Shown: positions 57,379 through 64,000, numbered from the stretch's first letter. The stretch: DNA of 64,000 nt from Geoalkalibacter halelectricus (GCF_025263685.1 NZ_CP092109.1:1923001-1987000); one strand, 5' to 3'. Translations and numbers: made by a program. Notes: generated by a model from the sequence alone, not told the origin.

Positions 57379-57397
57379 GTTGAAAACGAATTTCAAC
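57379..57397. promoter_or_regulatory. Fur-like operator at the TonB operon promoter
   Basis: GTTGAAAACGAATTTCAAC has 7-base perfect inverted ends; its core TGAAAACGAATTTCA fits the Fur 7-1-7 pattern. It overlaps the -10 box of the minus-strand promoter TTGACA (57424-57419), 16 bases, TATATG (57402-57397). Confidence 0.6.
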
Positions 57398-57519: not shown

Positions 57520-57536
57520 CTGAAAACGAAATTCAC
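57520..57536. promoter_or_regulatory. Second Fur-like operator, receptor side
   Basis: CTGAAAACGAAATTCAC repeats the word at 57379-57397 with a single internal change and lies 66 bases before the DUF2325 start. Confidence 0.5.
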
Positions 57537-57601
57537 TTCCTGAAATGGTTTGCGGCCGAATTACCGCTCAGCGTTGCATTTTTCACTCAAGGAGAAATCT
57601 T

Positions 57602-57895
57602 ATGAGCATCGCCGTTGTCGGAGGAATGAAACGACTGGAAGGACGTTACCGCGAGGAAGCCGAAAAACTAGGGTTAAAACTCAAGGTATTCAATGACCAG
57701 GCCCTCGACATGGAACGCAAGCTGCGCCGCTTCGATGCGGTGGTGCTGTTTACCAACCGTGTCTCGCACAACGCCCGACGCGATGCGGTGCAGGCCGCGC
57801 GCAATAGCAACATCCCCCTGCTCCAGATTCATTCCTGCGGGCTCTGCTCGCTGCGCGACTGTTTGCAGTGTTTGCTGGAACAAAAGCCCCAATGA
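57602..57895 (+). CDS. DUF2325 protein
   Basis: The 97-residue protein has the DUF2325 pattern: MSIAVVGGMKRLEGRYREEA at the start, FDAVVLFTNRVSHNARRDAV in the middle, and the Cys-rich end IHSCGLCSLRDCLQCLL. The four cysteines could bind a metal. It starts after AAGGAGAAATCTT. It precedes the TonB-dependent receptor in the same direction under the Fur-like box, so a link to metal supply is likely; the molecular role is unknown. Confidence 0.85.
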   Translation: MSIAVVGGMKRLEGRYREEAEKLGLKLKVFNDQALDMERKLRRFDAVVLFTNRVSHNARRDAVQAARNSNIPLLQIHSCGLCSLRDCLQCLLEQKPQ

Positions 57896-60145: not shown

Positions 60146-60187
60146 GACGGGCACCTGGACAACTTCACCCAGGTGCCCGTCACTTTT
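60146..60187 (+). terminator. Intrinsic terminator after the receptor gene
   Basis: GACGGGCACCTGG pairs with CCAGGTGCCCGTC around a 10-base loop, followed by ACTTTT. Confidence 0.75.
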
Positions 60188-60248: not shown

Positions 60249-60262
60249 AACACCCGGGTGTT
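60249..60262. promoter_or_regulatory. Palindromic operator candidate upstream of the P-type ATPase operon
   Basis: AACACCCGGGTGTT is a perfect 14-base palindrome located four bases before the -35 box of the next promoter. Such a site would suit an activator. Its binding protein is unknown. Confidence 0.45.
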
Positions 60263-60322: not shown

Positions 60323-60730
60323 ATGAGCGAGTCCAACGGAAAACATCAGGAACACGGCGGGGCAACCGGCCCGGCCAAAGGAGGAAAAAGCATGTCAGGG
60401 ATTTTTTTATCGAGTCGCAACCTCTACCTGATGCTCGGCGGCGCGGCAGGCACCCTGGCGCTCAAGGCCTTGGCCAAGAAATCCGACCTCTGGCGGCCGG
60501 CAGCGGTGGGAGCGGTCAAAGAGGGCATCGCCTTCAAGGAATGGGTGGCAACGCGCCTGGAAACCTTCAAGGAAGACGTCGAGGACCTGGTGGCGGAAGC
60601 GGCTGTCGCCTATCAGACCGAAGAAGCCGCGGATTCGGACTTCGCCGAGAAGGAACGCGAAATCCTGGAAAAAATGGCTAAATTCATCGATGAACGCCTC
60701 GCCGAAGTCGGCGGCAAAAAAGGAGCCTGA
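60323..60730 (+). CDS. Small membrane protein (DUF5132/PacL-like) of the P-type ATPase operon
   Basis: The 135-residue protein has a hydrophilic, His-containing N-terminus (GKHQEHGG), a Gly/Ala-rich membrane segment (YLMLGGAAGTLALKAL) and a charged helix with GIAFKEWVATRLETFKEDVE and DLVAEA. This plan resembles DUF5132 and the mycobacterial PacL chaperones encoded beside CtpC-type ATPases, though the C-terminal metal motif of PacL1 is not seen. Two starts are possible: ATG 60323 with a modest site, or ATG 60392 with a strong AAAGGAGG eight bases upstream. It is the first gene of a four-gene operon. Confidence 0.65.
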   Translation: MSESNGKHQEHGGATGPAKGGKSMSGIFLSSRNLYLMLGGAAGTLALKALAKKSDLWRPAAVGAVKEGIAFKEWVATRLETFKEDVEDLVAEAAVAYQTEEAADSDFAEKEREILEKMAKFIDERLAEVGGKKGA

Positions 60731-60732
60731 CC

Positions 60733-60975
60733 ATGACCCACCCTGTAAGCAGCATGTTTTATCTGCGCTCGGCCCTGAGTCTGGCCATCGGTATCGGCTC
60801 GGCCGTCACCGGCTCCTATCTGGTGTCGCGCATCAAGGATAAGCAGGAGCTTGATGCACGCCTCGAGCGCATGGAGCAGATCGTCGAGAAACTGGCCGCC
60901 TTCCCGGAGCAGGCGGACGCGGCCCCATCCACCGCACCCAAACCGCAGCGGACGGCCAAAACCGCCAAGAAGTAG
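60733..60975 (+). CDS. Small membrane protein of the P-type ATPase operon
   Basis: The 80-residue protein has one membrane helix (FYLRSALSLAIGIGSAVTGSYLV in part) then a short charged helix (KDKQELDARLERMEQIVEKL), likely coiled coil, and a Lys/Ala/Pro-rich end (KPQRTAKTAKK). It starts two bases after the previous gene and ends six bases before the ATPase gene. I do not recognise a family; a regulatory or scaffold subunit of the ATPase is plausible. Confidence 0.6.
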   Translation: MTHPVSSMFYLRSALSLAIGIGSAVTGSYLVSRIKDKQELDARLERMEQIVEKLAAFPEQADAAPSTAPKPQRTAKTAKK

Positions 60976-60981
60976 TTCGTC

Positions 60982-63090
60982 ATGCGCTTCCGCATTGAGC
61001 ATGAACTCCCCGGCCGACTGCGCTTGCGTTTGCAGTTGCCGCGTTATCCCGAGGTAGACGAAGCGGCCGTGGAAGCCCACTTTCACGACATTGCCGGGCT
61101 CTACAAGGTGTCTTTCAGCCGCCGGACCGCAGGAGTTCTGCTGCGCTTCGACGGACGCCCCGCCACTCGGGCCGCCTTGTTGCGCTGTGCCGAGGGCATG
61201 GGGCCGCACTTGCCTCTGCGCCCGGCGGAACGCAGCGAGTTGGAGAAGAAGCGCCGGATTGTGATGCGGGCCGGTACTCTTTTTCTGCTGCGACCTTTCA
61301 TCCCCATTCCCCTGCGCCCCCTGTTGGCCGTTTACGGCGCCCTGCCGGTCCTGCGCCGGGGGTTCAATGCGGTTGCCGCGCGCCGCTTTAATGTCGACGT
61401 TCTCGACGGCGCCGCCGTCACCGCCGCCATTGCGACCCGCGACTTCCTCACCGTTTCAACCATCACCCTGCTGCTCAAACTCGGTGAATATCTCGAGGAG
61501 TGGACCACGGGCCAATCACGCAAACTCTTGGCGGAAATGTTTCACACCGAAGAGGAATTCGCCTGGGTTTTGCGTAACGGAGCGGAGGAACGCATTCCTG
61601 CAAGCGAGGTGGTCTGCGGTGATACGGTCGTGGTGCGCACCGGCGGACTGATCCCCGTCGACGGCAAGGTGTTGCAGGGCAACGCCCTGGTCAATCAGTC
61701 GAGCATGACCGGCGAACCCCTGGCCGTGGCCAAACGCCCCGGGATCAGTGTTTATGCCGGAACCGCGGTGGAAGAGGGCGAACTTCAGATCCTCGCGGAA
61801 AAGGTCGGGGCGCAAACGCGTGCGGCACGCGTTATCCACATCATCGAAGAAGCCGAACGGCTCAAGTCCCCGACCCAGAGCCGCGGCGAGCGACTCGCCG
61901 ACCGGGTGGTGCCCTTCACTTTCGGCCTGAGCGGTTTCACCTATCTGGCTACGGGCGACGCCCGGCGCGCGGCTTCGGTACTGCTGGTCGATTATTCCTG
62001 CGCCATCAAGCTCGCCACCCCCCTGGCCATCGTGTCTTCTCTGGCCCAGGCTGCGCAGCGCCGGGTGCTGATCAAGGGCGGCCGCTACCTCGAAGCCCTC
62101 GCCGAAGCCGATGCCATTATTCTTGACAAGACCGGCACCCTCACCGAGGCCCTGCCTGAAGTCATCGAGGTGCTGCCCTTCGGCAACTACACCCGCGATT
62201 TCATCCTGCGCCAGGCAGCTTGCGTCGAAGAGCATTTCCTCCATCCCGTCGCCCACGCCGTGGTGCAGAAGGCCGCCGCCGAAGGTCTAAGCCATGCCGA
62301 GGAGCACGCCGCCGTCGAATACGTGGTGGCCCACGGCATCGTCTCGCGCCTGCACGGCGAACGCATTCTGGTAGGCAGCCGTCATTTCGTGCACGAGGAC
62401 GAAAAGGTCGACGTGGCGCCGGCCGACGAGCGGGTCGCGGCTTTCGCCGCAAAGGGCTACTCCATCCTCTATGTGGCCATCGGCGGCAAACTGGCCGGCG
62501 TCATCGCCATCCACGACCCTCTGCGCGGTGAGGCGCCGGAATTCATCCGCGCCCTGCCCGGGGCAGGCTTCAAACGGGTGATTCTGCTGACCGGCGACAA
62601 CGAGGCCACCGCCGCGACCGTCGCCAGGAGCCTGGGCATCAGCGAGTATTACGCCCGCGCCTTCCCCGATCGCAAGGTCGAAATCGTGACGCAATTGCAG
62701 CAGCAAGGGTTCAAGGTGGCCATGGTCGGCGACGGCATCAATGATTCACCGGCCCTGGCCCAGGCCGACGTCGGCATTTCCATGCGTCACGGTGCGGACA
62801 TCGCCAAGGAGGCCGCCGACGTGGTCCTCATGGAGGGCACCCTGCACGACATTCTGGCGGCGCGCGCAATCGCCCGCTCGGGGCTCGAACTGATCCGCCG
62901 CAACTACCGGACCATCGTCGGCGTCAACACCGCCGCCATCCTTCTCGCCATCACCGGGCTCACCCCCCCGCTGTTCTCGGCCATGCTGCACAACGCCAGC
63001 ACGGTGGGCGTGGCCTTCAACGCACTACAACCCTTGCGTCGCGCCCGAGCCGCCCAAACCCCGGGCCCTGAGCGATCAACACCACGCTAA
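60982..63090 (+). CDS. P-type metal ATPase with N-terminal HMA_2-like domain
   Basis: The 702-residue ATPase starts with a small domain containing HELPGRLRLRLQLPR, like the HMA_2 domain encoded two genes later. It has about six to eight membrane helices, with TM6-type metal motif DYSCAIKLATP in place of the classic CPC/CPx. Catalytic motifs are SSMTGEP (dephosphorylation), DKTGTLTE (phosphorylated Asp), HP in FLHPVAHAVV, and GDGINDSPALAQADV. The exported or imported metal cannot be read directly; the SCA motif marks a distinct P1B branch, with CtpC-type Mn/Zn ATPases as the nearest guess. Confidence 0.88.
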   Translation: MRFRIEHELPGRLRLRLQLPRYPEVDEAAVEAHFHDIAGLYKVSFSRRTAGVLLRFDGRPATRAALLRCAEGMGPHLPLRPAERSELEKKRRIVMRAGTLFLLRPFIPIPLRPLLAVYGALPVLRRGFNAVAARRFNVDVLDGAAVTAAIATRDFLTVSTITLLLKLGEYLEEWTTGQSRKLLAEMFHTEEEFAWVLRNGAEERIPASEVVCGDTVVVRTGGLIPVDGKVLQGNALVNQSSMTGEPLAVAKRPGISVYAGTAVEEGELQILAEKVGAQTRAARVIHIIEEAERLKSPTQSRGERLADRVVPFTFGLSGFTYLATGDARRAASVLLVDYSCAIKLATPLAIVSSLAQAAQRRVLIKGGRYLEALAEADAIILDKTGTLTEALPEVIEVLPFGNYTRDFILRQAACVEEHFLHPVAHAVVQKAAAEGLSHAEEHAAVEYVVAHGIVSRLHGERILVGSRHFVHEDEKVDVAPADERVAAFAAKGYSILYVAIGGKLAGVIAIHDPLRGEAPEFIRALPGAGFKRVILLTGDNEATAATVARSLGISEYYARAFPDRKVEIVTQLQQQGFKVAMVGDGINDSPALAQADVGISMRHGADIAKEAADVVLMEGTLHDILAARAIARSGLELIRRNYRTIVGVNTAAILLAITGLTPPLFSAMLHNASTVGVAFNALQPLRRARAAQTPGPERSTPR

Positions 63091-63104
63091 AAGGGAGAGT
63101 CATC

Positions 63105-63542
63105 ATGACCATCCATTCCATCCCGGGTCGTTTACGCCTGCGCCATATGACCCTGCGCAACTCAGAGGTGCGGGAGCAGTTGCGCCGACACGCCGGCCGC
63201 CTTTCCGGCATTCAAGAACTGGACATCAACCCCCGCACGGCGAGCCTTCTGGTACGCTACGATCCGCAAGTGCTCGATTCAGCGACCCTGCATGCCACAC
63301 TTGAGCAACTGGTGCCCGGCGCCGCTCGACCGGCCTCATCCGCCGGCCATACCCACAGCCTCTCTCGGCAACTTTCGCGTGACGAGCGCAAAAAACTCGC
63401 CTATGCCATGCTCACATCCCTGGGAACCAGCCTGCTGGCCCTGCTGGTTCACGGCAAGAAGGCCCATGTCATTGCCGGATGTGTGTTTCTTGCCGGGCTT
63501 GGCCTCCATCTGAGCGACAAGAAAAAATTTCTGTGCTCCTGA
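63105..63542 (+). CDS. HMA_2-like domain protein with C-terminal membrane helix
   Basis: The 145-residue protein repeats the ATPase N-terminal plan: HSIPGRLRLRHMTLRNSEV, then ELDINPRTASLLVRYDPQVL. The classic CxxC of HMA metal-chaperone domains is absent, as in HMA_2. A C-terminal hydrophobic pair (LTSLGTSLLALLVHGKKAHV and IAGCVFLAGLGLHLS) anchors it in the membrane. It starts 14 bases after the ATPase and is the last gene of the operon. It may regulate or load the ATPase. Confidence 0.78.
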   Translation: MTIHSIPGRLRLRHMTLRNSEVREQLRRHAGRLSGIQELDINPRTASLLVRYDPQVLDSATLHATLEQLVPGAARPASSAGHTHSLSRQLSRDERKKLAYAMLTSLGTSLLALLVHGKKAHVIAGCVFLAGLGLHLSDKKKFLCS

Positions 63543-63676: not shown

Positions 63677-64000
63677 ATGACTCGACTGTTGGTATTCCTT
63701 CTCGCCCTCATTTTTGTTTTACCGCTTACCGCTGCGGCCCACCCAACCCACGGCGTTCACGAGCATGGCGTGGCCGATCTGCGGGTGGCCGTGGACGGCG
63801 AGGAGGTGCTCATCGAGATGGAGAGCCCCCTGGACAATTTGGTCGGCTTCGAGCACCGGCCGCGCACCGACGCGCAACGCGCCGCCCTGGAGGAGGCCAT
63901 GGCGCGCCTGGCGCGCTTTGAGCAACTGTTCGGCTTGCCCGCGGCGGCTGCCTGCGCGGTCAAGGAACATCGCCTGCAATCGCCCTGGCCGACAGAGACC
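63677..64000 (+). CDS. ZrgA-like zinc-binding periplasmic protein (DUF2796), 5' part
   Basis: The window holds the first 108 codons; the gene runs off the right edge. A signal peptide (LLVFLLALIFVLPLTAAA) is followed by HPTHGVHEHGVADLRVAVDG, the start pattern of DUF2796/ZrgA proteins, with several His near the mature N-terminus. ZrgA in Vibrio binds zinc and supports zinc uptake. The Zur-like box upstream fits zinc-starvation control. ATG 63677 has AGGAGAA upstream. Confidence 0.85.
   Translation, partial: MTRLLVFLLALIFVLPLTAAAHPTHGVHEHGVADLRVAVDGEEVLIEMESPLDNLVGFEHRPRTDAQRAALEEAMARLARFEQLFGLPAAAACAVKEHRLQSPWPTET

Follow-up and report, generated by a model that had tools for sequence, protein, structure and literature searches.

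A four-gene P1B-6 ATPase operon of Geoalkalibacter halelectricus is probably a distinct sub-type of the ferrosome (fez) gene cluster

Here, we describe a compact operon built around a P-type ATPase in a 64,000-nucleotide stretch of the Geoalkalibacter halelectricus genome (NZ_CP092109.1:1923001-1987000). This whole stretch is called the window, and positions are counted from its first letter. A preliminary description of the window had placed a four-gene operon at 60323-63542, and this is borne out: four + strand open reading frames, A to D, nearly touch one another, with gaps of 2, 6 and 14 bases. Protein A (60323..60730, 135 amino acids) has a weakly hydrophobic helix with a GxxxG motif, followed by a charged helix of 77 residues. 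Protein B (60733..60975) is the anticipated membrane protein of 80 residues, with one hydrophobic helix and then a charged, coiled-coil-like stretch. Protein C (60982..63090, 702 amino acids) is the ATPase, and protein D (63105..63542, 145 amino acids) joins an HMA_2 domain to a two-helix module. On their own, A and B match no Pfam family.

Protein C is a heavy-metal P-type ATPase (TIGR01525, E = 2.1e-154) with the features of class P1B-6. Its fourth membrane segment (M4) contains DYSCAIKLATP, of which DYSCAIK (61990..62010) is the metal-site motif, and none of CPC, CPH, SPC or TPC; its last membrane pair carries HN, as LHN in M6 (62986..62994; residues 669-671). HN in the sixth transmembrane segment is a hallmark of P1B6 ATPases (PMC9374683). 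CtpC of M. tuberculosis has HN as in P1B6 but CPC in the fourth segment, and has been named P1B6-like (PMC9374683). The metal motif of C had been called unusual. It is not: all 118 distinct relatives, gathered by ATPase similarity and selected with a loose form of the M4 motif, have DYSCAIK or something close to it (DYSCAIK in 29, DYSCALK in 24, DFSCALK in 22, DYSCAIR in 11, close variants in the rest). CPC, CPH, SPC and TPC occur at the M4 position in 0 of the 118, and HN is found near the C-terminus in 117. By these motifs, C is a P1B-6 pump and DYSCAIK a family signature, not an oddity. Grant and colleagues are said to have placed FezB, the ferrosome pump, in class P1B-6 in 2022. A search of the PDB with C returned no close P1B-6 structure; the top matches were copper, cadmium and zinc ATPases.

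The N-terminus of C (60982..61227) carries a PGRLRLR, HMA_2-like domain that scores 15.8 bits against HMA_2, under the 30-bit cut-off. Its residues 7-82 are 36% identical to D (E = 1.7e-4), a detectable similarity that upholds the PGRLRLR motif noted as shared by the ATPase and the last protein. Neither the N-terminus of C nor D contains CxxC, and these domains are therefore more likely to join the two proteins than to carry metal in the manner of copper ATPases.

Protein A had been labelled a DUF5132/PacL-like protein. The PacL kinship stands at the level of the family: of its 30 aligned members, DUF6110 is recognised in 14 (best 1.9e-41) and DUF1490, the PacL family, in 5 (best 5e-6), and A alone matches neither DUF6110 (PF19605) nor DUF1490 (PF07371). 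DUF5132 is rejected; it is matched neither by A nor among the families listed for the 30-member alignment. From these profile matches, A can probably be placed in a DUF6110 family with kinship to DUF1490/PacL. DUF6110 proteins have been reported adjoining P1B6 ATPases (PMC9374683) and have been termed PacL-like (PMC13043812). Clustering of PacL proteins requires a conserved glycine pair, three apart, in the membrane helix (PMC13043812), and the A family has conserved glycines four apart in its own (G39 and G43, alignment columns). The AlphaFold model of A has helices at residues 31-51 and 58-134 (77 residues), with a mean predicted local distance difference test (pLDDT) score of 79.7. A contains no Cys and two His in total, both near the N-terminus. 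It ends in EVGGKKGA, and no PacL-type C-terminal metal-binding motif or His-rich tail was found in it.

In most A-type loci the A-family gene lies directly upstream of the pump gene. Many clostridial loci have a DUF6110 protein immediately before a P1B-6 ATPase, and no further gene of fez type was recognised next to the two. The fezA and fezB genes of C. difficile lie side by side (PMC11651100). They encode a membrane protein and a transporter; ferrosomes require the two of them, and Fur represses both (PMC12574912). Because the layout of the clostridial DUF6110-P1B-6 pairs matches that of fezAB, we infer, from layout rather than from alignment with FezA, that A is the FezA counterpart.

Protein D bears out the suggestion of a second HMA_2-like protein, reaching 46.8 bits against PF19991 (E = 3.9e-12), for which the gathering cut-off is 30. 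Its predicted structure (mean pLDDT 84.8) consists of a ferredoxin-like fold and two long helices (residues 92-114 and 118-138), and in a Foldseek search its top matches were HMA domains, none at E <= 0.001. The two-helix module (63378..63518) carries H121 and H135, in the arrangement H-x13-H. The same His pair, at the same spacing, is found in proteins of about 75 residues encoded immediately ahead of the pump in most six-gene operons, the related loci that agree in gene number with the published six-gene fez layout (PMC12016538). Profile-to-profile comparison of the D module with this FezC-like set gave a probability of 96% and an E-value of 4.8e-9, for a single comparison in which the D set was chosen by its His pair. 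All of the loci that encode such a protein (63 of 63) retain the two His, as scored by a profile trained on His-bearing members. The Pfam signal of the ~75-residue proteins, where there is any, is mostly to DUF4405, under the cut-off; in the G. halelectricus genome DUF4405 has eight sub-threshold matches, none inside the operon. FezC resembles DUF4405; it is a haem b-binding cytochrome and has been modelled as a homodimer (PMC11334425). Because the D module matches the ~75-residue family, that family is weakly DUF4405 and FezC is DUF4405-like, D is probably an HMA_2-FezC fusion, with FezC itself compared by description. On the strength of this relationship, D is probably also a b-haem cytochrome. 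In the helices of cytochrome b, haem ligands are spaced as H-x13-H, so that two haems could be held across the membrane by a dimer of D. It could instead be that the module is a mere membrane anchor devoid of haem. Some related operons have HMA_2 partners that lack it, so it is dispensable for some pumps, and haem binding has been demonstrated only for FezC of Desulfurispirillum indicum and one DUF4405 protein (PMC11334425). We nevertheless consider the anchor doubtful, given the complete retention of both His (by the His-trained profile), their cytochrome b-like spacing and the profile match to the FezC-like family.

How faithfully do these small proteins accompany the pump? Loci were gathered by ATPase similarity alone, from the order, the phylum and named genomes, and their flanks were searched with profiles of the small proteins. 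Counts were made over 75 loci, related by descent, flanked by 3 kb or more on either side; 14 loci of other P-type ATPases served as controls, and FeoA/FeoB were scored within 4 kb. The A family lies near 50 of the 75 pumps and F6, a protein of the six-gene type, near 22; one or the other accompanies 72. None has both (0/75), a mutual exclusion that is partly definitional, owing to the rule that separates A from the related six-gene protein c3. FezC-like proteins occur near 44 pumps and FeoA/FeoB near 37. All four are absent from the control ATPase loci (0/14). Conservation of the small partners beside the pump is far beyond chance. Among 41 named loci outside the profile training, 30 have A, 10 have F6 and 40 have either, in a set that is not fully independent, as a few loci are duplicated under two identifiers (e.g. 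L078/L142, L027/L106). In the reverse test, the 134 genomes searched in the order gave five strong matches to A (E < 1e-26), each in a genome that carries this ATPase branch; the 390 searched in the phylum gave four strong matches to B, every one in a genome that has a window-type pump. The co-occurrence of the small proteins with this ATPase branch, on which the preliminary description had staked its proposal, thus holds in both directions.

Phylogeny gives a consistent picture. In a tree of 42 pumps, those with SCA-K in M4 form a single clade apart from the CPC pumps (support 100/99), within which the six-gene type (100/100) is separate from the A-type (99/97). The window clade, marked by B, has support 100/100, and a larger quick tree agrees with the smaller one. 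Members of the window clade come from Desulfuromonadales-type genomes of the window's own order (presumably Desulfuromonadales), Geobacter, a Thermodesulfovibrionales bacterium (Nitrospirota), Candidatus Methanoperedens and Brocadiaceae (Jettenia). In the profile search of the flanks, B was found in 15 loci, each time together with A; the sole clade member without it (L024) is on a contig that stops just short of the missing genes. By its profile matches, B is a marker of this strongly supported clade of window-type ATPases.

Several related loci have features of their own. A few kb away from the six-gene operons of L026, L027, L029, L030, L062, L064, L067, L068, L096, L100 and L106 there is a second P-type ATPase, which has ACPCAT in M4 and, in most of them, an N-terminus of the PGRLRLR type. 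In the six-gene loci L026-L030, L062-L070 and L096-L106, a FeoA-domain protein of about 250 amino acids directly follows the pump (PF04023, 2.9e-10 in L027), and no description of it was found in the fez literature searched. Two genomes of one family (L077, L078) have a tandem pair of window-type P1B-6 ATPases in a single operon.

Upstream of the operon lies a TonB receptor gene (PF00593, 5.1e-57). Between it and A is a perfect inverted repeat of 12 bp followed by a short T-rich stretch (60147..60180, + strand), a likely terminator that was read directly from the sequence; its loop exceeds the length allowed by the terminator scanner. A hairpin with a T-run is found downstream of D, where such matches are no commoner than chance, and the scan for promoters and terminators gave nothing above chance. 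Because the repeat splits off the TonB receptor gene and the hairpin follows D, A to D are read as one transcription unit. A 14-bp perfect palindrome upstream of A (AACACCCGGGTGTT, 60249..60262) is a possible operator. It is the sole such site in the 4.1-Mb genome, even allowing one mismatch, and therefore defines no regulon. On the other side, the gene for ZrgA, a zinc-uptake protein (PF10986, 7.6e-49), lies 134 bp after D. The zrgA gene, an ABC-type ATPase gene and a permease-like gene stand in that order (window 63677-64000; L020 10677-13833).

Zinc and TonB genes beside the operon had been taken to support a metal role. Both are present, and the zinc part is not borne out: zrgA adjoins the pump in this genome and at no other locus, and we reject a zinc role deduced from it. 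A congeneric species has genes for FeoA-FeoB, DUF2325 and a TonB receptor upstream of the operon. A Fur-like inverted repeat, TGAAAAYGANWTTCA, has two copies in the G. halelectricus genome, both ahead of the DUF2325-TonB genes: TGAAAACGAATTTCA (57381..57395, + strand), in a divergent promoter region, and TGAAAACGAAATTCA (57521..57535, + strand), before DUF2325 and the TonB receptor. Allowing up to one mismatch, TGAAAACGANNTTCA is found ahead of related operons in L021 and L022 and in four copies in L130. Since FeoA-FeoB, DUF2325, TonB and Fur-like repeats accompany related operons and the adjacency of zrgA is unique, iron is the likeliest metal by gene context. The DUF2325 gene (57545-57895) itself recurs near P1B-6 pumps in several phyla (L021, L022, L130, L143, L159, L160, L164).

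Taken together, we read the operon, with a probability of about 0.7, as a distinct sub-type of the fez (ferrosome) cluster, which pumps Fe2+ into membrane compartments. As in fez, the genes for a P1B-6 pump (C) and a small membrane protein (A) stand in one operon. What the data show is the make-up of the genes, the families of their products, how they co-occur, the phylogeny and the presence of the FezC-like module. The preliminary description looked to the PacL-CtpC pairs of mycobacteria; the ferrosome system is the better counterpart, and neither it nor the haem-type module of D figured there. Beyond that, we infer that iron is the substrate, that vesicles form, that D docks on the pump, and that haem is bound and electrons are transferred. 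C, the FezB-like pump, would remove Fe2+ from the cytoplasm; its most likely destination is the interior of a vesicle derived from the inner membrane, where the iron may be stored as a mineral. A would cluster the pump in the membrane via its GxxxG helix, and its long charged helix may help to organise or bend the membrane into a patch or vesicle. B, similar to A in layout, may be a clade-specific accessory scaffold or helper. D would dock on C through the shared GRLRLR ferredoxin-like domains, and its paired H-x13-H modules may hold b haems and carry electrons across the compartment membrane, either oxidising iron for storage or reducing it for release.

Several points weigh against this assignment. 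The presumed homology to FezA, FezB and FezC is drawn from layout, class and published descriptions; the proven fez systems of D. magneticus, R. palustris, S. putrefaciens and C. difficile were compared by description, not sequence. Vesicle, iron binding and haem are here read from genes alone. No Fur box or Fur-like repeat was found before the window operon, unlike related operons, and it is a zinc-uptake gene that follows it. Finally, the genome has four ferritin-family genes, and so another iron store may exist.

It is also conceivable that the operon is an iron-efflux platform of the plasma membrane, in which A draws C together into flat patches, on the model of PacL1 and CtpC, and Fe2+ leaves for the periplasm with no vesicle involved. 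Export and vesicle loading share the same pump topology, A has DUF1490/PacL relatives at the level of its family, and PacL proteins assemble with P-type ATPases into patches in the membrane (PMC9374683, PMC13043812). Set against this, A lacks Cys and a His-rich metal-binding tail, C lacks CPC, and the presence of FezC-like proteins near 44 of the 75 relatives is easier to reconcile with a redox compartment than with simple export, so that we think such a platform unlikely. Efflux of zinc, or of cobalt, nickel or manganese, is less probable still. The case for zinc, the metal favoured by the earlier comparison with PacL-CtpC, draws on the zrgA gene next to D and on the export of zinc by certain PacL-partner pumps (PMC9374683). 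It fails to hold up in the relatives: zrgA is beside none of the other loci, FeoA/FeoB recurring instead (37 of 75), no relative has the CPC in M4 that CtpC has (PMC9374683), and A has no PacL-type His-rich motif.

Compared with the described ferrosome systems (fezAB of C. difficile, the six-gene cluster of R. palustris, and D. magneticus), the window operon has in common the P1B-6 pump, a small membrane protein in the place of FezA, a FezC-like His-paired module, the company of iron genes in relatives and anaerobic hosts. It differs, in a comparison made by description, in having B and in the fusion of the FezC-like module to HMA_2, the module being free-standing in six-gene loci; it lacks F6, c3 and an adjacent FeoA-domain gene. 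The PacL-CtpC effluxosome of mycobacteria resembles it in the DUF1490-related small protein beside a pump with HN in M6, in the HMA_2-type N-terminus of the pump and in the glycine pair of the small protein's membrane helix. In contrast, the window pump has no CPC in M4, A has no His-rich metal-binding tail, the operon includes a cytochrome-like partner, and the neighbours of its relatives are iron genes, not zinc genes. A and C probably belong to the wider set of DUF6110 + P1B6 gene pairs (PMC9374683, PMC13043812), in keeping with the 14 of 30 A-family members that match DUF6110, although A itself falls below detection by the DUF6110 model and the window branch adds B and D. With FezC/DUF4405 cytochromes, FezC being modelled as a homodimer (PMC11334425), D shares membrane helices with paired His; it differs in its N-terminal HMA_2 domain, and its likeness to DUF4405 is indirect, via the ~75-residue family.

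The pump class is already known and widespread. What is new is the B-bearing branch, the HMA_2-FezC fusion that D probably represents, the range of hosts, which takes in iron-cycling bacteria, anammox bacteria and an archaeon, and the connection drawn between ferrosomes and PacL-like scaffolds. This connection was not found in the ferrosome and DUF6110 literature searched, which did not extend to key Nature papers, and part of it may be known. We tentatively propose, at somewhat less than even odds, that ferrosomes and PacL effluxosomes are branches of one machine, composed of a glycine-paired scaffold and a P1B-6-type pump, to which the window branch adds B and the HMA_2-cytochrome, making iron compartments in metal-reducing bacteria, anammox bacteria and Methanoperedens. 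No iron compartments have been reported from these organisms in the literature that could be searched.

If our interpretation is correct, Desulfuromonadales, Geobacter, Methanoperedens and anammox bacteria, which live on iron turnover, would have a lipid-bounded iron store. Their compact set of four genes, with its likely haem subunit, would be well suited to studying the passage of electrons and Fe2+ over a compartment membrane. It would also link the PacL-like scaffolds of metal efflux with FezA of ferrosomes, making a shared clustering helix a testable idea.

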